This document shows positions 4,290 to 63,203 of a DNA stretch of 63,203 nt, piece after piece (the first letter of the stretch is position 1; every line of letters begins with the position of its first letter). A program made the translations under genes and the position numbers. The notes below the pieces were generated by a model that did not search any database, was not told the DNA's origin, and was given only the letters and a program-made list of their open reading frames with translations. Source of the DNA: Acidobacteriota bacterium (GTDB lineage Bacteria; Acidobacteriota; CAIWXX01); the NCBI GenBank assembly GCA_016191015.1, contig JACPPM010000090.1:1-63203 (forward strand), given 5' to 3'.

Positions 4290-5576
4290 TCCAGAGCGGT
4301 CGAGGCACGCGCGGCCGCTGCTCGGGCGACTTGCTCTGGCTTCCCTACGGCGTCGCCCACCACGTTCGGGTGACGGGAGACGCGGGCGTTCTCGATCAGC
4401 GTGTCCCATTCCTGGAAGCACCGCTTCTCGACGCCGGGGCGCTGGAGGCTTATGGTCAACCACATGTGGCAGCCGAGCAGGGGACGCTCTTCGATCATCG
4501 TTTCCGCGCGATCGACAAGGGGATCACGAGCGGGGCCCACGGACTTCCGCTGATGGGTGCCGGGGACTGGAATGACGGCATGAACCGGGTGGGGCGTGAA
4601 GGACGCGGGGAGAGCACGTGGCTCGGCTTCTCTCTGTACAGCGTCCTCACTGTACTGGCACCCTTGTGTGAGTGCCGTACGGATCTGGCCCTGGCAGAGC
4701 ACTACGGCAATGAGGCCAGTCGTATCAGGTCCGTGCTCGAGCAGGCGTGGGATGGCGAGCGGTATCGGCGCGGTTACTACGACGACGGCACGCCCTTGGG
4801 CTCCGCGCAAAATGGAAACCGCGTCCCCGCCCGGGGAGAAGGGCGCAGATGCAAGGAGCCGAGGAGCGAGGAGCGCAACGTGCACGGCGGTACTTGAGCA
4901 CCGCAGCGACGAAGGCGACGCAGCAGATGCGCCCTTATCGCCGGCCGGGCGAGCGCCGCAGGTTCTGCCGGTGCTGACGCCACCCTTCGATCAATCGGCG
5001 CAGGACCCGGGCTACATCAAAGGCTACCCGCCCGGAGTCCGCGAGAACGGCGGCCAATACACGCACGCGGCCGTGTGGATCGTCATGGCGCTGGCCAAGC
5101 TCGGAAGTGGCGACGAAGCGGCGGAGCTGTTCCACATGCTCAATCCAATCAACCACACGCGCACCCCGGCCGACGTCGATCACTACAAAGCCGAGCCCTA
5201 CGTGATGGCCGGCGACGTCTGCGCGAACCCGGGGTATGCCGGGCGAGGCGGCTGGACCTGGTACACTGGCTCCGCCGGTTGGATGTACCGCGCGGGCATC
5301 GAGAGCATCCTCGGCCTCCGGCGCCACGGCACTACATTCGAAGTCGACCCCTGCATCCCCGCCTCATGGCCCGAGTACGAGATCATCTGGCGCTTCAACC
5401 GAACGAGCTACGAGATCACCGTCTCGAACCCGCATCGCCGCTGCCGAGGCATCGCCGACGCCCAACTGGACGGCACGCCCGTCGACCACCAGGCCATCCC
5501 AATCGTCGACGCCGCCGCCACCCATCACCTCCGGGTGATCCTCAGGGACGAGCCGTACCCGGCCAAGCAACTCTGA
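4290..5576 (+). pseudogene. Degenerate second copy of the GH94 gene
   Basis: Bases 4290-4817 align with ~310-838 of the intact copy (same [11 protein letters not shown] motif kept) and 4950-5576 align with ~943-1570 through the stop codon. The ~105 bases between these parts of the parent are missing and replaced by unrelated sequence holding a palindromic element (4839-4936), so the two halves are in different frames. The 5' third is absent. The 3' part is very close to copy 1 (only scattered, mostly third-position changes), while the 5' part is more diverged. Confidence 0.88.
4839..4936. repeat. Palindromic interspersed element inside GH94 copy 2
   Basis: The left end AAGGGCGCAGATGC (4839-4852) and right end GCAGATGCGCCCTT (4923-4936) are inverted copies at 12 of 14 bases, with GGAGCGAGGAGCGCAACG and related GC-rich sequence between them. 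It sits exactly where copy 2 lacks parent sequence. The style (GCAGATGC ends, GAGGAGCGC core) resembles small hairpin repeats seen in several environmental bacterial genomes; that comparison is from memory. Confidence 0.6.
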
Positions 5577-7189: not shown

Positions 7190-7700
7190 TGCAAATCCCG
7201 CTGGTACTGGCTCCGGGGGAAGTGCCACAGGTTGGTATTCCTCCTGGACCAGGGGAAGGATGCAGACCATGCCCGCGAGCTCGTCCAAAGGCACGGCAAT
7301 GTCGCTGCGGCCGAGGCCGCGCTAGAAACCGTGCACCGATCGTGGGATTGTTCTCTCGACGCGATTCAGGTGCGTACGCCGGACGATTCCTCAACTACCG
7401 ACGAGCCCTGGCCGGCGAGGTCCGCAGGTTCTGCCGCTGCTGATTCCGCCCTTTGATCAATCGGCGCAGGACCCCGGCTACATCAAGGGCTACCCGCCCG
7501 GAGTGCGGGAGAACGGCGGCCAGTACACGCATGCGGCCGTGTGGATCGTCATGGTGCTGGCGCGGCTCGGGAATGGAGACGAAGCGGCGGAGCTTTTCCA
7601 CATGCTCAACCCGATCAACCACACGCGCGCCACGGCGCGACATTCGAAATTGACCCCTGCATCCCCGCCTTATGGCCCGAGTACGAAATCCTCTGGCGCA
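7190..7700 (+). pseudogene. Degenerate third copy of the GH94 gene
   Basis: Starts further upstream in the parent than the window start: [16 protein letters not shown] and [28 protein letters not shown] resemble the linker before the GH94 catalytic domain. It then jumps from parent ~93 to ~937 ([12 protein letters not shown] region), jumps again at about 7629 from parent ~1153 to ~1319, and ends near 7700 at LWR. Two internal deletions and no 3' end make it non-functional. Confidence 0.88.
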
Positions 7701-24579: not shown

Positions 24580-24668
24580 CGTGGCCCCATTTCGGCCGCG
24601 GGGACGCATGTGGCGGTAGGGAGGATAAGAAATGTGGCGACGATCATTGAACAGGAAGTTGAACCGCG
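24580..24668 (+). repeat. Upstream region shared with a gene-start relic at 28900
   Basis: GTGGCCCCATTTCGGCCGCGG, GCATGTGGCGGTAGGGAGG and the start codon region ATGTGGCGACGATC align over about 85 bases with 28898-28982 (ATGGCCCCGTTTTGGCC, TCATGTGTCGGCAGGGAGG, ATGTGGCAACGATC). It covers the leader, Shine-Dalgarno and first ~12 codons of the propeller gene. Confidence 0.65.
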
Positions 24669-26620
24669 CGCATGGTGCGCTGGCACTCACGCTTTTCACG
24701 GTGGCATGCCCTTGTCTGGCGGCCACGAACCGATGGACCAAAATCAGCCCGGGCGGCAACATGGATACGCTGGCTGCGGCGCCTTCGGCACCGGGAGTTC
24801 TGTACGCCGCGTACTTCGATCCGAATGTTTGGAGGAGTGAGGATGGCGGTCTGACGTGGGAGCCGCGCGGGGATGCTCCCTGGATCGGCGAGGAAGACAT
24901 CAAGCTCTTCGTGGATCCCATCGACTCCGATACGCTCTATCTCTGCTCGGACATTGACCTGAGTCGGAGTGGAGAAGACCCGGAGCTGGCCAAAAGCACG
25001 GACGGGGGGAAGACGTGGGTGATTCTGGACGACTGGTGCTCGGGCTATCTCGCCATCCATCCGCGCGATAACAGCATCATGTACCGGGTCGCCAGTTACT
25101 GTGGCGTCATGAAATCGACCGATGCGGGAATCACCTGGCGGACACTGGATGAGGCTCCATCCTACCCGCACTCCGTAGCCATCGACCCATCGACTCCACA
25201 GACCGTTTACGTGGGAACGGGGCATGGCGTTTCCAGGACCATCGACGCCGGAGCCACATGGCTGCCGGCCAACTCGGGGCTTCCCAATGACGGTCACGAT
25301 GTCTACGTCGGCGTCCTAAAGACTCATCCGGATGACCCCCACGTGGTCTACGCCGGGACGAACAAGGGACTGTTCAGAAGCAACGACAATGCAGATTCAT
25401 GGGCCCGAGTCGGCGCGCAGTTCGGATCCGCCATCGTCGACCAGATCGCCATCGCCCCGCGGGACTCGAAGACTCTCTTCGTCTCAGCCGGTAGCACGGG
25501 TCTTTATGTAACCCGCGACGGAGGCAAGACATGGCGAAAGCGAGCTCCAACTGGAATTGACCGAGGGGCGGATTCCCAGGACCTGCCTGTATGCGATCTC
25601 GGGATCGACGCCGGTGATCCGGACACGATGTACGTGCGCGTGGACGGCCTCGGGTTGATGAGAACCACCGACGCGGGAGTGACCTGGAGCCTCGAGGGCC
25701 GTGGACTGCCAGGTCAACCCGCGTCGGTAGCGTGCGACCCTGAGCGTCGAGGAGTTGTCTATTGCACCACCGGTTCGTGGGTCCTCCGATCCGACGACTC
25801 CGGTGACTCCTGGCGCCCGATCTGTGACGGGCTGCCGGACTACCTGACCACGCCACTCGTGATGGATCCCAGGCACTCGGAGACCATCTACATCGGGTCG
25901 TACTGGGGGGTCTCCCGCAGCCAGGGCGGAGGCCGGAAATGGAAGCAGATGAATCAGGGGCTGGGCACGTCTCGCGATATCGACTCGCTGGCTCTGGCCC
26001 CGAGCGATCCAGACCGTCTGATTATCGCCGGCTACTACGGTCTGTTCGAGTCGCTGGACAGCGGATCGCGGTGGCGGCGGATCGCGGACGCGCCCGCGGA
26101 ATACGGGGTCGATCACCTCGTTTTTGACCCGTCTGACAGCGATGTCCTCTATGCGGCGGAGCGCTGGTCATCGCGCGTGTTTCGAAGTGATGACGGAGGC
26201 AGATCCTGGAATCAGTGGGGTGCACCGATCGGAGGAGCTGACAACGAGCTCAACAGGATTGTGATCGACCCGAAGAACTCTCGGGTCGTCTACGCGCTGA
26301 CCGACGACGGGGTCTACCGGCGAACCGTGAGAGAAGACGGCTGGATCAGATTCGGGCCTCCCGCCGAAACGGAATCCTCCTTCTACGCCATGACGTTCGA
26401 CCCGGATGATTCCGACATCATCTACCTGGGTCTGGCGTATTCAAATCACACGATCTACAGGAGCAAGGACGGCGGTGCGACGTGGTCACCGCTGGATAGC
26501 GGCTTGAGCGGTGAAGATGGCCGTCTCAGCGTCTACAGCCTGACGGTCGACGCTTTCGAATCCGATCGGCTCTTCGCCGGCACCGAAGACGGCGTGTATT
26601 CGATGCGGATCGACCAATGA
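24632..26620 (+). CDS. Secreted Asp-box beta-propeller protein (cassette 1)
   Basis: 662 residues with a signal peptide (ALALTLFTVACPCLAATN). ATG 24632 follows GGGAGGATAAGA. I count twelve Asp-box motifs (for example RSEDGGLTWEP, KSTDGGKTWVI, KSTDAGITWRT, VTRDGGKTWRK, RTTDAGVTWSL, RSDDGGRSWNQ, RSKDGGATWSP), each followed by a strand like IAIDPxxPxxVYxGT; this fits two six- to seven-blade propellers as in VPS10-type proteins. Asp-box propellers are binding or glycan-active scaffolds; no catalytic set can be assigned. The stop overlaps the start of the next gene as ATGA. A paralogous pair with the same order is at 54922-58116. Probably binds a polymer at the cell surface for its partner. Confidence 0.85.
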   Translation: MWRRSLNRKLNRAHGALALTLFTVACPCLAATNRWTKISPGGNMDTLAAAPSAPGVLYAAYFDPNVWRSEDGGLTWEPRGDAPWIGEEDIKLFVDPIDSDTLYLCSDIDLSRSGEDPELAKSTDGGKTWVILDDWCSGYLAIHPRDNSIMYRVASYCGVMKSTDAGITWRTLDEAPSYPHSVAIDPSTPQTVYVGTGHGVSRTIDAGATWLPANSGLPNDGHDVYVGVLKTHPDDPHVVYAGTNKGLFRSNDNADSWARVGAQFGSAIVDQIAIAPRDSKTLFVSAGSTGLYVTRDGGKTWRKRAPTGIDRGADSQDLPVCDLGIDAGDPDTMYVRVDGLGLMRTTDAGVTWSLEGRGLPGQPASVACDPERRGVVYCTTGSWVLRSDDSGDSWRPICDGLPDYLTTPLVMDPRHSETIYIGSYWGVSRSQGGGRKWKQMNQGLGTSRDIDSLALAPSDPDRLIIAGYYGLFESLDSGSRWRRIADAPAEYGVDHLVFDPSDSDVLYAAERWSSRVFRSDDGGRSWNQWGAPIGGADNELNRIVIDPKNSRVVYALTDDGVYRRTVREDGWIRFGPPAETESSFYAMTFDPDDSDIIYLGLAYSNHTIYRSKDGGATWSPLDSGLSGEDGRLSVYSLTVDAFESDRLFAGTEDGVYSMRIDQ

Positions 26621-27768
26621 TGCGAGGAGTGTGCGTGCCGGTTCGCGAGACCCAGCCCGCCGCCCCGGGTACCCGGGACGGCGGCGTGCCGTCCCGCCTT
26701 CCCTCATGGGCCTTACCAAGCGCACTCATCGTTGCAGGGTTGGTCGTGAGCTCTCCCGATGCCGCTCACGCGGAGAACACCGAGTTCATGCTCGGTGTCA
26801 GCTACTTCGGTGCCCTCGGTCCCGGCGTCGACATCGAGGATGACATTCCCACTCTGGCGCGGAGCCATCACTTCAACCATCTCTGGGTCTGGGGGCTTTG
26901 GATGGAACCTTCGCTCGACACCGCATCCGTCTTCGACAAGAAGGGCCGAATCCGGGACGAGGTCGCCGCGCGGCTGGACAAATTGATCGGCCTGGCCGGC
27001 GCCGAAGACATGACGCTCACCCTCTCCTTCGACCCGGACGAACACCGGCGGATGTGGGGCGGCCGGAAGCCGAAATTCAAGACGTACTTGAACGGCCTCC
27101 GCGCGATTGCCGCCTGGCTGCGACAGAACGACAACTACTCGAAGTATCGCAACGTGATGTTGAACGTGTGCACCGAGTGTGTGACCACGTGGGATCGAGG
27201 TTCCGCAGCAGGCTACACCACCAAGCTCATGAGCCACTACTCTGACAGATCGATCCGCGAGGATCCCGCCGCAGCCGTCATCGAGCTGTTCGACGCGGTG
27301 AACGGCCTTGGTGGCGATCCGATCCCGGCTTTCATTTCGCTGGCATTCAACGACGACGAGAAGTACATCGACATGGCGACGTCATTCTATCGTCGACTGC
27401 AGCCTGCGACCGGCCGACTGATCGCTGCTCCGCATTTCGAAAGATCGTGCGAAGACTGGTATGCGAAAACAGAAAGCCGTATCCGGTCTTTTTGCGAAAA
27501 ACTCGGGGTCGACGCCGAGATCTACCTGCAGGAAGAGAATCGACGGCATAACAAGATCCTTGGCCATGAATGTGATATCCAAACCAGCCATTTCCTGGAG
27601 GCTGCGTGCCAGGCCCGGCGGGCCGGATCCATCGGCTGGGTCTTCCAGACGCAGGCCGGATTTGGAAAAACGAGCAGCTTTTTCGACGGGCTGGACCAGA
27701 TTGAGTCGCAGACCGTGGATCAGTTAGAGGATCACGTCGCGCGATGCGGTGATGGGTCTGGCTCCTGA
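26617..27768 (+). CDS. Secreted TIM-barrel-like protein, putative glycoside hydrolase (cassette 1)
   Basis: 383 residues; a signal peptide near residues 31-52 (ALIVAGLVVSSPDAAHA) after a long basic lead. No family I can name. Alternating strands and helices fit a (beta/alpha)8 barrel: MLGVSYFGAL (b1), FNHLWVWGLWM (b2), MTLTLSFDPDEHRRM (b3), YRNVMLNVCTEC (b4), PIPAFISLAF (b5), GRLIAAPHFERSCEDWY (b6), VDAEIYLQEEN (b7), GSIGWVFQTQAGFG (b8). Glu187 in NVCTEC and Glu306/307 in LQEEN lie where clan-A glycosidases keep acid/base and nucleophile. Five cysteines (185, 188, 278, 319, 331) are shared with the paralogue at 57064. ATGA overlap with the propeller gene shows tight coupling. Confidence 0.7.
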   Translation: MMRGVCVPVRETQPAAPGTRDGGVPSRLPSWALPSALIVAGLVVSSPDAAHAENTEFMLGVSYFGALGPGVDIEDDIPTLARSHHFNHLWVWGLWMEPSLDTASVFDKKGRIRDEVAARLDKLIGLAGAEDMTLTLSFDPDEHRRMWGGRKPKFKTYLNGLRAIAAWLRQNDNYSKYRNVMLNVCTECVTTWDRGSAAGYTTKLMSHYSDRSIREDPAAAVIELFDAVNGLGGDPIPAFISLAFNDDEKYIDMATSFYRRLQPATGRLIAAPHFERSCEDWYAKTESRIRSFCEKLGVDAEIYLQEENRRHNKILGHECDIQTSHFLEAACQARRAGSIGWVFQTQAGFGKTSSFFDGLDQIESQTVDQLEDHVARCGDGSGS

Positions 27769-28897: not shown

Positions 28898-28990
28898 AGA
28901 ATGGCCCCGTTTTGGCCGGGATGACTCATGTGTCGGCAGGGAGGGTTGGACATGTGGCAACGATCGCCGGTCAAGAAGTTGTGGGCACAG
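28898..28990 (+). pseudogene. Relic of a propeller-gene leader and start codon
   Basis: Aligns with the leader of the cassette-1 propeller gene (24580-24668), including AGGGAGG and the start ATGTGGCAACGATC at 28952, then loses similarity and meets a stop (TGA) about 13 codons in (MWQRSPVKKLWAQ). It is the broken-off 5' end of a third gene of this type. The rest of 28778-29121 holds nothing I recognise. Confidence 0.6.
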
Positions 28991-32474: not shown

Positions 32475-32505
32475 GGCGACGACGATTGCAGTCTTGATTA
32501 GTGTC

Positions 32506-32745
32506 TTACAAGTTGCGTGTTGACACGAAATGGCAAGAAATGTGAGGCGGCTAGATCTTCCGAACTCCTCTCAGGAAAGCAGGAGGGGAGGAATGCAGGA
32601 ACGGAGCGGTTGCCTCGGACGATCAGAGTGCCTCGGAAGAACTCTCTCACCCCTTCGCTTCGCTCAAGGGCTCCGGCTCCACGCTCCAGGCCCGAGAAGC
32701 GGGCCGGACGCTCTCACGCGCGGCTCTGCCGCGTTGGGTTCATCG
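32506..32745 (+). repeat. Composite dispersed repeat, copy A
   Basis: Head AAGTTGCGTGTTGACACGAA and ATGGCAAGAAA, then GAGGCGGCTAGATCTTCCGA, CTCCTCTCAGGAAAGCAGG and GGAATGCAGGAACGGAGCGG, nearly identical to copy B (51582) over ~120 bases; a variable middle; and a tail CTCTCACGCGCGGCTCTGCC, GCGTTGGG. It abuts the damaged 5' end of the DUF6289-like gene. Confidence 0.8.
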
Positions 32746-51462: not shown

Positions 51463-51581
51463 CGCACTCCCTCCAACATTCGCATTCTATCACCTGGCCA
51501 CAGCGCGGATTCCCGTCGCGTGTTTTCACGCGGCTCGCGAATCAAAGCGTCCCAAGCTCTCCGTAGCGATATAATAGTGTC

Positions 51582-51800
51582 TAGGAAGTTGAGTGTTGAC
51601 GCAAAATGGCAAGAAAGTTGAGGCGGCTAGATCTTCCGAGCTCCTCTCAGGAAAGCAGGAGGGGAGGAATGCAGGAACGGAGCGGTCGTCTCGGCCGATC
51701 GGGGTGGCTCGGAAGAACGCTCTCACTCTCTACGCTCCACGCTCTCACGCGCGGCGGGGACGCAACCAATGCAGGTTGCGCCTCCTCCGCGTTAGGCAGG
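51582..51800 (+). repeat. Composite dispersed repeat, copy B
   Basis: TCTAGGAAGTTGAGTGTTGA, ATGGCAAGAAA, GAGGCGGCTAGATCTTCCGA, CTCTCAGGAAAGCAGGAGGG and AATGCAGGAACGGAGCGGTC match copy A (32506) closely; the head is also that of copy C (19632). The tail CTCTCACGCGCGGCGGGG ... CTCCGCGTTAGGC ends 30 bases before the TA operon start. Confidence 0.8.
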
Positions 51801-54921: not shown

Positions 54922-57033
54922 ATGTCAATGCGAATCGGTCGTGATACTGCGGGTCGGTATCTGACGGGGCAGAAGCGCCTTGCTGGAGGTGGGTGGGTGG
55001 TCATGTGCCTGCTGTTGCTGGGCGCGTTTCATGCGTCCGCGGCTGAGGAGGATCGGTGGAGGAAGATCGGAAAGGGCGGGCTCGCGGATGCAATCGCGGT
55101 GGATCCGCGGGATTCGACGAGAGTCTACGCTGCGCACTGGGAAGATGATGTATTTCGGCGGAGCGATGACGGCGGGGTCACGTGGCAGGCGACCGGGACC
55201 ATCCCATATACAGAAGCCATCGGCTACAACCTGACGATCGATCCCAGCGACTCGGAGGTTTTGTATATCGAGACTGATCCGGAATACTGCAGCAGTTGCG
55301 ACGCGGCGCTGCTCAGGAGCACCGACGCCGGAGTTACGTGGGAGATCCTCCAATACGAGGACGGAGTCGACGGCCCCATCGCCATCCATCCGCGAAATGG
55401 ATCGATCCTCTACCGCGCTGACAATTACTCCGGTCGGGTCTACAGATCAGTCGACGGGGGCGTGACGTGGAGCGTGTTGGCCGGCCTGCCGCGGGAAGGG
55501 CTGTCGATCACGATCGACAAGTCGGCCCAGCCCATCGTCCTCGTCGGAACCGCGAGCGGGATCTACCGAAGCACGGACGGAGGCGCCTCGTGGATCGCCG
55601 CGAATACCGGCCTGCCCGGGGATGGCAGCAGCACGATGGCCACCATGCTGAGCGCATCCGGGACGGAGGCGGGGATCGTCTACGCCGCGACCGATCGAGG
55701 CCTCTACCGCACCATCGACGGTGGGGCGCAGTGGACGCGTGTCAGCGCCAGCTTCGATACCCAGACGGTGACGCACATCTCTGTGGACTCGCGTGACTCG
55801 GATGTGGTGTGGGCATCATCGTCCGGCGGAAAAGTTTACGTCACCTACGACGGCGGTCGTGCGTGGAGAGCCCACTCCATCGAAGGAGCCGCCTTCACCG
55901 GCCTGCTCGATCCGACTCTCTCAGACGTACCCTACCTCATCACTGACATCGCCGCTGGCTCGGGCGATCGGGGGACCGCCTATGCGCTCGTGCGTGAGCT
56001 CGGCATCTTCCGCACGACAGACGGAGGCGAGTCATGGGATTTGTTGGGGGCGCGGCTTCGTGGGCCGGCCGCCCAACTGGTGCTTCCTGATCCTGTTATG
56101 CCCGGCAAGCTGTACGCCGCGAGCTCAGCCGATCCGCAGTACTCCTTCTCAGATCGCGAGCTTTTGACGGCGACCAGCGACGGCGGATCGACCTGGAGAC
56201 TCGCGTGCGACGGTCTGCCGGCCGGAGACGTCGTGTCCGGCTTGGGCTGGATCCGCGATCTGAAGATCAGCACTCTTGAGCGCGGCATGCTCTTCGCGAC
56301 GACCCGCCGCGGCGTCTATAGGAGCGTCAACGGTGGAAGGAGCTGGAGCCCGGCCAACAAGGGGATCGTACGGTCTGCGAATGCGGGGCCTCTTGCGATT
56401 GATCCGGATGATCCGGCCCACGTTTTCGTTTTCGTCCGGAAGGAGGGATTCTTCGAGACCCTCGACGCAGGTCTGAGTTGGCAACGTCTCAGCACAGATC
56501 TGGCTTCGCGGCTCATTGCGACGATCGTTCCCGATACGAATCGGCCAGGCGTTCTTTACGCTGGAGCGCACGGGGAATGGTACGGGGACGCCGCGGCCGT
56601 GTTCCGCAGTCTTGACGGCGGCCGGACTTGGAGTGTGCTCGGCAAGCCGTTCGGCGATGACGGCGTGGATTTCATCCAGATCGCCGTTGCGCCTACCAGC
56701 CCGTCCACGGTCTATGCTCTCGGGGGTTTCGGTTTGTACCGGCTTCGCTCGGGCGATGGGGACTGGTCCAATCTGGGACTGATCGATGGGAGATCCGACG
56801 CATCCTGCGTCGCGGTGGATCCGGCGGATCCGGCGGTCCTCTACGCAGGCACGACGAGAGCCGGGGTATTCCGAAGCGTAAACTCCGGCGACACGTGGAC
56901 TCCATTCAGCACCGGGCTGAATGACAGGTCCGGCTCGGATCAAGTGCGTCACATCGCGTTTGGAGCCGAGGCGAGCGGAGCTCTGTACGCTGCGACAGGT
57001 AACGGCGTCTATGCGCGGGCTCTCAATCGCTGA
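54922..57033 (+). CDS. Secreted Asp-box beta-propeller protein (cassette 2)
   Basis: 703 residues with a signal peptide (WVVMCLLLLGAFHASA). About twelve Asp-box motifs: RSDDGGVTWQA, RSTDAGVTWEI, RSVDGGVTWSV, RSTDGGASWIA, RTIDGGAQWTR, VTYDGGRAWRA, RTTDGGESWDL, ATSDGGSTWRL, RSVNGGRSWSP, RSLDGGRTWSV, RSVNSGDTWTP. Paralogue of the protein at 24632 with the same architecture. ATG 54922 follows GGGAGGAGACGAAG; the open frame from 54805 lacks support. Its partner barrel gene starts 30 bases downstream. Likely a two-propeller surface or secreted binding protein. Confidence 0.85.
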   Translation: MSMRIGRDTAGRYLTGQKRLAGGGWVVMCLLLLGAFHASAAEEDRWRKIGKGGLADAIAVDPRDSTRVYAAHWEDDVFRRSDDGGVTWQATGTIPYTEAIGYNLTIDPSDSEVLYIETDPEYCSSCDAALLRSTDAGVTWEILQYEDGVDGPIAIHPRNGSILYRADNYSGRVYRSVDGGVTWSVLAGLPREGLSITIDKSAQPIVLVGTASGIYRSTDGGASWIAANTGLPGDGSSTMATMLSASGTEAGIVYAATDRGLYRTIDGGAQWTRVSASFDTQTVTHISVDSRDSDVVWASSSGGKVYVTYDGGRAWRAHSIEGAAFTGLLDPTLSDVPYLITDIAAGSGDRGTAYALVRELGIFRTTDGGESWDLLGARLRGPAAQLVLPDPVMPGKLYAASSADPQYSFSDRELLTATSDGGSTWRLACDGLPAGDVVSGLGWIRDLKISTLERGMLFATTRRGVYRSVNGGRSWSPANKGIVRSANAGPLAIDPDDPAHVFVFVRKEGFFETLDAGLSWQRLSTDLASRLIATIVPDTNRPGVLYAGAHGEWYGDAAAVFRSLDGGRTWSVLGKPFGDDGVDFIQIAVAPTSPSTVYALGGFGLYRLRSGDGDWSNLGLIDGRSDASCVAVDPADPAVLYAGTTRAGVFRSVNSGDTWTPFSTGLNDRSGSDQVRHIAFGAEASGALYAATGNGVYARALNR

Positions 57034-57063
57034 CGGGCGCCGGCGGAAGCAGGAGACAAGACC

Positions 57064-58116
57064 ATGCGAGCACACCGGATGCTTTATGCAGCAGCGGTCG
57101 TGCTGGTCGCTTCAATCCGGGCGGCGCAGTCAGAGGAGTCCCGACCGGTCGAAGAGTACGTGCTCGGTGTCAGCTATCTGGCCGCGCTCTCGTCGAGCGT
57201 CGATGCTGAAGGTGACATCCGGAGGCTCGCGCGGCTCGGATACAACCATCTCTGGATCTGGGCGACGTATGACGTGCCGTCCGCCCAAGAGGCATCGATG
57301 GTGGACAAGAACGGGAAGATCCGCAAAGGCCCGGCCGCGCGCCTCGATGCGATCATCGGGCTCGCCGGCGCCAACGGCATGACGATCAACCTGACGCTCG
57401 ACCCGGAAATGCACGTGCCGATGTGGCGAGGGAAGACCCCGCCATTCGAGACGTACGAGAATGCCGTTCGCAACGTGGCGAAATGGCTGCGAGCCAACGC
57501 CAACTACAAACGGTACCAAAACGTCACGGTGAATGTGTGCAACGAATGCGTCATCAACTGGCGTCGCGGAGTCACGGGCGAAGGGGTGACGAAGCTGATG
57601 AAACACTATGGCGGCCGGGACCTGGCAGAGCATCCGGCCGTGGCGATCCAGGAGCTTTTCGACGCGGCCAATGAGGGTCCGGGAAATCCGATCCGCGTCT
57701 TCGTGTCGCTGGGCTTTCCGGATGAGGCAGTGCCGAAGGCCCAGGCAGCGGCACTGTATCGCGCCCTCATGCCGTACGGCGGCCGTCTGCTGGCCGCTCC
57801 TCACTTCGACCGCACCTGCGCGGACTGGTACAAGAAGACCGGCGAGCGCATCCGCGAATTCCGGAATCTTCTCGGGGTCGACGCCGACATCTACCTGCAG
57901 GAGGAGAACCGGCGCCACTACAAGAAGATCCAATGCGACATCCAAGTGGAGCACTACAAAACAGCTGCCTGCCAAGCCAAGCAGGAAGGCGCATGGGGAT
58001 GGAACTTCCAGTCGCAGGCCGGCTTCGGTGAATCGGACAGTTTCTTCGGTGGGCTGGACAGCATCGAGAAGGAGGCAGTGGAGACACTCCCCGCCGGCCT
58101 CACAGAATGCCCCTAG
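57064..58116 (+). CDS. Secreted TIM-barrel-like protein, putative glycoside hydrolase (cassette 2)
   Basis: 350 residues with a signal peptide (MLYAAAVVLVASIRAAQS). Paralogue of 26617: YVLGVSYLAALSSSVDAEGD, GYNHLWIWATYDVP, MTINLTLDPEMHVPMW, YQNVTVNVCNECVINW, GGRLLAAPHFDRTCADWYKK, VDADIYLQEENRRHYKK, WGWNFQSQAGFGESDSFFGG all align. Glu161 in CNEC follows an Asn as in the NE pair of clan-A glycosidases; Glu280/281 in QEEN is the nucleophile candidate; Trp311/313 could line the sugar site. Cysteines 159, 162, 252, 291 and 303 match those of the other copy. Not assignable to a named GH family by eye. Confidence 0.7.
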   Translation: MRAHRMLYAAAVVLVASIRAAQSEESRPVEEYVLGVSYLAALSSSVDAEGDIRRLARLGYNHLWIWATYDVPSAQEASMVDKNGKIRKGPAARLDAIIGLAGANGMTINLTLDPEMHVPMWRGKTPPFETYENAVRNVAKWLRANANYKRYQNVTVNVCNECVINWRRGVTGEGVTKLMKHYGGRDLAEHPAVAIQELFDAANEGPGNPIRVFVSLGFPDEAVPKAQAAALYRALMPYGGRLLAAPHFDRTCADWYKKTGERIREFRNLLGVDADIYLQEENRRHYKKIQCDIQVEHYKTAACQAKQEGAWGWNFQSQAGFGESDSFFGGLDSIEKEAVETLPAGLTECP

Positions 58117-58120
58117 GGTA

Positions 58121-58223
58121 GTGCTGAGCGCTAGGTTCTGGGTGCTGGGTGCCCGGAAAGCTGTGGCTGAGCCGGAGCGGCAGAACTCAGCACCCAGAAC
58201 TCAGCACTCAGCACCCAGCACTG
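58121..58223. repeat. AGCACTCAGCACCC-type hairpin between convergent genes
   Basis: GTGCTGAGCGCTAGGTTCTG, GGTGCTGGGTGCCCGG on the left and CAGAACTCAGCACCCAGAAC, TCAGCACTCAGCACCCAGCA on the right form a long imperfect stem. It is the compact form of the outer repeat at 19397-19846 and lies between converging stops, where it could end transcription from both sides. Confidence 0.7.
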
Positions 58224-58254
58224 GGGGACCCCACCGTCCAGCGAAACACCGGGA

Positions 58255-63041: not shown

Positions 63042-63203
63042 GGAGCCGCAACCAAACAGGCAAGACCCAGGCACGCTGCAAGACCCTTCCGAGCACCTCT
63101 CAGGAAAGCAGGAAGTTAGGAAGGCAGGAAGGGATCTGTTCGATGCCACCCTGAGCTCCGGAGATGACTGCTCCGTTCCTGCATTCCTCCCTTCCTGCTT
63201 TCC
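63042..63203. repeat. Composite dispersed repeat, copy D (runs off the window)
   Basis: TTCCGAGCACCTCTCAGGAA, AGCAGGAAGTTAGGAAGGCA (63087 on) is the core of copies A and B, and the last bases CCGTTCCTGCATTCCTCCCT, TCCTGCTTTCC are the same core inverted, so the two form a long hairpin around a ~30-base loop. A GGCGGAGCCGCAACC block at 63048 is the inverse of the tail of copy C. Confidence 0.7.

Follow-up and report, generated by a model that had tools for sequence, protein, structure and literature searches.

A twice-occurring gene pair of an Acidobacteriota bacterium encodes a predicted exported Asp-box propeller and a clan GH-A-type barrel

What might two adjacent genes, for an exported propeller and an exported barrel, do together, and what does it mean that one genome carries the pair twice? 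We addressed this question in a stretch of 63,203 nucleotides (the window, that is, the whole stretch of DNA that was analysed) from an Acidobacteriota bacterium (assembly GCA_016191015.1, contig JACPPM010000090.1). A first-pass annotation, made from the letters alone, had described a two-gene cassette present twice, with each gene paralogous to its counterpart 30 kb away. Both cassettes were found, at 24632-27768 and 54922-58116, 30 kb apart in the window, and consist of the following genes.

24632-26620, + strand: propeller 1 (P0001), 662 residues; signal sequence, then a predicted 14-blade double Asp-box propeller
26617-27768, + strand: barrel 1 (P0002), 383 residues; presumably exported clan GH-A-type barrel
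54922-57033, + strand: propeller 2 (P0003), 703 residues when counted from the start chosen in the first-pass annotation; signal sequence, then an Asp-box propeller, paralogue of propeller 1
57064-58116, + strand: barrel 2 (P0004), 350 residues; paralogue of barrel 1 and, like it, a presumably exported barrel of clan GH-A type

In cassette 1 the start of barrel 1 overlaps the stop of propeller 1 (ATGA); in cassette 2 the two genes are separated by 30 nt, and a good Shine-Dalgarno sequence, AGGAG, precedes barrel 2. The paralogy held for both genes. The propellers align end to end with 34% identity (680 columns, E = 3e-109), and the barrels, also end to end, with 52% identity over 342 positions (E = 1e-125). 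In phylogenetic trees, the cassette propellers are sisters among the propellers of the genome (support 100/97), and the window barrels are likewise sisters (support 100/100), showing that the cassette was duplicated as a unit. With dN 0.44 and dS 1.31 for the barrels, and dN 0.69 and dS 1.92 for the propellers, dN/dS is about 0.33-0.36 for both gene pairs, indicating purifying selection on both. All four proteins have a hydrophobic export-type leader at the N-terminus, as read from the sequence, which suggests that propellers and barrels are secreted.

A third leader relic at 28.9 kb had been taken to suggest a larger family. What lies there is a short repeat of the region upstream of cassette 1:

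24582-24661, + strand: 80 bp comprising the first codons of cassette 1 and the region upstream of them, recurring at 28902-28981
28902-28981, + strand: orphan copy of this region, 76% identical, with no propeller gene after it

The repeated segment covers the upstream region, the ribosome-binding site and the first codons of cassette 1. A DNA search of the genome with the upstream stretch gave only chance-level matches elsewhere; the sensitivity of this search was limited, as it also missed the 28.9-kb copy, so that equally diverged copies could escape it. Since no other significant match was found, we rejected the repeat as a pointer to a larger cassette family; a local duplication is the best reading of it. 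For the propeller alone, the genome does have a larger family.

Other repeats are present in the window. Directly 3' of cassette 2, at 58117-58224, is a long intergenic hairpin of GTTCTGGGTGCTGGGTGC-type units (-84 kcal/mol with its flanks, z -5.6); parts of it have matches at more than 20 further sites of the genome, and it is thus a dispersed REP-like repeat. Between positions 313 and 7699, the segments 313-1570, 4294-5576 and 7304-7699 are repeated with 82-92% identity and resemble copies, now decayed, of a single mobile or duplicated element. Another dispersed repeat, of up to about 160 bp and 83-95% identical, occurs in at least three places (32499-32659, 51575-51736 and 63086-63203).

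The second protein of each cassette had been described as TIM-barrel-like. Structure prediction of the barrel alone, a check that the first-pass annotation had suggested, agreed with this: the AF2 model of barrel 2, built, as was that of propeller 1, on a two-sequence alignment (pLDDT 69 and 72, respectively), is a complete (beta/alpha)8 barrel of eight alternating strands (pTM 0.75). The top Foldseek matches of this model were GH5_4 enzymes, PbGH5A and GH10 xylanases (E about 1e-7, TM about 0.5, in a range of about 0.5-0.6 for the two models), and the best of them share 13-19% identity with the barrel. The window barrels matched no Pfam or NCBIfam family above its cut-off. For Pfam PF00150 (Cellulase, GH5), P0004 scored 22.9 bits, missing the cut-off of 23.5 by 0.6 bit, and P0002 was not listed. 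Matches of P0004 to the 'nitrous oxide-stimulated promoter' family in NCBIfam and Pfam were weak, short and under the cut-off, and were rejected. No characterised non-enzymatic family was matched; such a match had been named as one that would refute the proposed reading. A 17-row profile of barrel family members (A5), from which the weak matches L078-L084 were excluded because they resemble other families, found its best matches in the PDB mostly among GH5 enzymes (GH5_7 mannanases, GH5_18, GH5_2, GH5_4 glucanases; subfamily numbers given in part by the PDB titles). Together, the fold, the profile and the catalytic residues described below indicate a barrel of glycoside-hydrolase type, and the second cassette protein is very probably a clan GH-A-type barrel.

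The residues expected to form the active site map to the following codons.

26884-26886, + strand: Trp90 of barrel 1, at the beta-2 position
27175-27177, + strand: Glu187 of barrel 1, aligned with E161 of P0004; presumably the acid/base, following beta-4
27532-27534, + strand: Glu306 of barrel 1 (YLQE), aligned with E280 of P0004; presumably the nucleophile, within beta-7
57253-57255, + strand: Trp64 of barrel 2, in place of the beta-2 Arg of the aligned relatives
57544-57546, + strand: Glu161 of barrel 2, presumably the acid/base, following beta-4 (154-159)
57901-57903, + strand: Glu280 of barrel 2, presumably the nucleophile, within beta-7 (276-281)

In the alignment of A5 with PDB sequences, the NE of the family is matched to NEP in a GH5 cellulase (1tvn), and its PVYLQE, though more weakly, to PVWLQE in ScGH5_18; hence, we presume that the acid/base is E161 in P0004 and E187 in P0002, and the nucleophile E280 and E306, respectively. 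Both glutamates are retained in both window copies and are invariant in the 17-sequence alignment; the invariant positions of the barrel family are D51, E161, H247, R250, W255, E280, G309 and W313 (P0004 numbering). The window barrels thus share with GH5 and clan GH-A the (beta/alpha)8 fold, the Glu after beta-4, the Glu in beta-7, the His after beta-6 and the Trp in beta-8. They differ from GH5, however, at other positions. A conserved Arg on beta-2 is a feature of GH5, and Arg is found there in 19 of the 19 alignable relatives, whereas both window barrels have Trp. The residue before the acid/base is Asn in P0004 and in all relatives but Thr186 in P0002 (N160T in P0004 numbering), and the beta-8 His is replaced by Gln in both (H316Q). 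Six Cys positions are common to the two window barrels. Judged from the loss of the beta-2 Arg in both copies and of the Asn in one, the active site is rewired, and with the additional change in beta-8 the activity could be weak, altered or lost.

As for the first protein of the cassette, the exported propeller described in the first-pass annotation was recovered, but its count of about 12 Asp-boxes was not: strict Asp-boxes number 7 in each propeller, and by our own strand count the predicted structure of P0001, the one propeller of the two on which the figure rests, has 14 blades, in an overall packing of low confidence (pTM 0.54). Each of the top 25 PDB fold matches of this model is a tandem 7-bladed propeller of GH74, with a TM of about 0.6 for most and 15-19% identity; like P0001, these carry 7+7 blades in one chain. 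The best profile match is also a GH74 enzyme, Xgh74A (E 2e-22). In GH74, the catalytic Asp residues are carried by the motifs RTDIGG (ARTDIGG) and DIGGF. A motif check found neither in the two propellers. The N-terminal catalytic Asp aligns with an aromatic residue, Phe62 in P0001 and a Trp in P0003, that is directly next to an acidic one; in the C-terminal half, where DIGGF is absent, the region lies outside the coverage of the profile alignments. Membership of GH74 fails at the N-terminal catalytic Asp. Both propellers exceeded the 175-bit family score of NCBIfam NF045728 (225.6 and 194.3 bits, each the sum of 6-7 partial repeat matches to a 246-residue model), and the name of this family, 'F510_1955 family glycosylhydrolase', implies no demonstrated activity for them. 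Among the Sortilin-Vps10 and Ycf48-like Asp-box repeats of Pfam, both exceeded the Sortilin-Vps10 cut-off. Vps10 or sortilin proteins combine one 10-bladed propeller with 10CC modules (10CC-a and 10CC-b) downstream of it. This architecture was rejected for the cassette propeller, for which 14 blades are predicted and which fills the chain, with no downstream domain. Known Asp-box propellers are 6-bladed in GH33 and GH58, 7+7-bladed in GH74 and 10-bladed in Vps10 (PMC2716378). The simplest reading is that the cassette propeller is a ligand-binding protein, most likely non-catalytic.

We searched for the barrel and for the pair elsewhere. The barrel occurs in two copies in its own 6.4-Mb genome, both in cassettes. 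It was absent from the one available genome of the same family, and none was found in the genomes of 98 relatives; nor did pattern scans, which detect close relatives only, find one in 84,980 species or in plasmids, phages and viral contigs. A two-row profile of the barrel picked up two weak relatives in one genome (G236), which belongs to another class of the phylum; of the 193 genomes of that class, 23 had matches to a four-row profile, and the weakest of these matches probably belong to other families. A third candidate, L005 (in G032), was discarded as a weak chance match to a leucine-rich protein. The family members of this other class (L062, L085, L063-L074 and L086-L089) are clearly homologous to the window barrels at the profile level (E 1e-24 to 1e-153) and share with them the same glutamates and an H..R....W signature around beta-6. 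They differ in having only about 20-26% identity, in keeping the beta-2 Arg and, in many cases, in carrying a C-terminal region of repeats, which we read as trefoil-like and which matches Pfam DUF7910 in L063; this tail suggests a substrate-binding part in cis. Their loci also differ from the cassettes in having no tandem Asp-box-only propeller as neighbour: a propeller-only gene of the cassette type stood beside a barrel relative at 0 of the 16 loci examined with their flanks. The search for the pair across related genomes that the first-pass annotation had proposed, counting non-conservation against its own reading, thus found the pair in no other genome searched.

At two loci from two genera of another class (L102, 3394-10406; L113, 5580-14818), a GH-A-like barrel with a trefoil-like tail adjoins glpK/glpF-like genes, and a Vps10-type Asp-box protein of about 1000 residues is encoded near this barrel relative. 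We did not accept these loci as conservation of the pair: the propeller is of a different subfamily, and the two loci look orthologous and so represent one event at most. In its own genome, the cassette propeller belongs to a larger set, with about 20 further Asp-box proteins, about 10 of which are standalone tandem-type propellers of 630-830 residues; none of these other propellers has a recognisable barrel as neighbour. Part of the same expansion are two arrays, of two and three adjacent secreted Asp-box propeller genes (contigs C273 and C302; L043 and L044), whose products have about 640-705 residues, or 420 as called for the third one. No transporter, SusCD-like or other CAZyme gene was recognised among the partly annotated neighbours of the cassettes.

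These results bear on how much of the proposed 'binding propeller plus catalytic barrel' can be kept. The substitutions in the barrels suggest that they could be pseudo-enzymes, in which the GH-A fold was kept to bind a glycan or the propeller while catalysis was lost with the beta-2 Arg and, in one copy, also with the Asn of NE. Besides the three replacements, the branch of 2.81 changes per column (100/100 support) that separates the window barrels from the remaining family fits this view, and loss of catalytic residues is known from some GH5 modules (PMC3526467). Yet both catalytic Glu, His247 in beta-6 and the beta-8 Trp (W313) were kept under purifying selection although the paralogues have diverged at 48% of their positions. 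Either the -1 site of the window barrels recognises a different sugar or activity was lost, and the retention of these residues between copies that differ at nearly half of their positions favours activity; we regard pseudo-enzymes as unlikely.

It also seems conceivable that propeller and barrel are functionally unrelated, the propeller being one of the roughly 20 expanded Asp-box proteins that came to lie next to a barrel by chance. That none of the other propellers, standalone ones included, sits beside a recognisable barrel, and that barrel relatives occur without a propeller, would agree with this. A chance neighbourhood is rather unlikely, however, given the translational overlap of the two genes and their co-duplication, after which they are still together in two strongly diverged cassettes. 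The propeller could itself be a glycosidase, a GH74-like inverting enzyme whose cleft lies between two 7-bladed propellers; the barrel would then be a second enzyme that processes what the propeller releases, for example in a two-step depolymerase of a beta-glucan or xyloglucan-like polymer. The fold matches, GH74 in 25 of 25 cases, and the match to Xgh74A point in that direction; the absence of both catalytic motifs, the aromatic residue at the first Asp position and an identity to GH74 of about 18% make it very improbable.

We favour, at a probability of about 0.5, a divergent retaining glycosidase working with a polymer- or enzyme-binding propeller that acts in trans, in two paralogous versions. 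Each cassette would give rise to two separately exported proteins, kept in proportion by co-translation. The barrel would be a divergent retaining clan GH-A glycosidase, with the acid/base Glu after strand 4, the nucleophile Glu in strand 7, and a -1 site remodelled by the exchange of the beta-2 Arg for Trp and, in one copy, of Asn-Glu for Thr-Glu. The propeller, a 14-bladed double Asp-box protein of the GH74 / Ycf48 / Vps10 superfamily and most likely non-catalytic, would bind the same extracellular polymer (a glycan or glycoprotein) or hold the barrel at the polymer, a role that it would play in trans and that in many barrel relatives may fall to the fused trefoil-like tail. Duplication of the whole cassette followed by divergence would have produced two versions of different specificities. 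Of this reading, linkage, paralogy and co-duplication, the predicted fold, the conserved glutamates and purifying selection are shown; we infer secretion (from the N-terminal sequence), hydrolase activity, the binding role of the propeller, the physical partnership and the class of substrate. The functional pairing is suggested by the tight linkage, co-duplication and co-export of the two genes. Thus, of a binding propeller and a catalytic barrel acting together on an extracellular polymer, the glycoside-hydrolase-type barrel was borne out, conservation of the pair outside this genome was not, and the proposal as a whole is plausible. A bolder version seems quite improbable: an undescribed two-polypeptide extracellular depolymerase, made up of a new GH-A family or subfamily whose -1 subsite is rewired (Trp in place of the beta-2 Arg, Thr in place of the Asn of NE) and a double propeller of GH74 fold that clamps the barrel and supplies the substrate cleft in trans, cutting a polymer that ordinary GH5 enzymes do not.

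The barrels form a new and divergent side branch of an enzyme type already known, in a putative partnership restricted to this lineage. If the barrels are active, they would, together with their relatives of the other class, form a glycosidase family that is missing from Pfam and NCBIfam, and their natural substitutions at positions considered invariant in GH5 would offer a ready test of the role of those residues. If the propeller acts in trans with the barrel, one member of the large, uncharacterised set of Asp-box propellers expanded in this lineage would gain a function.
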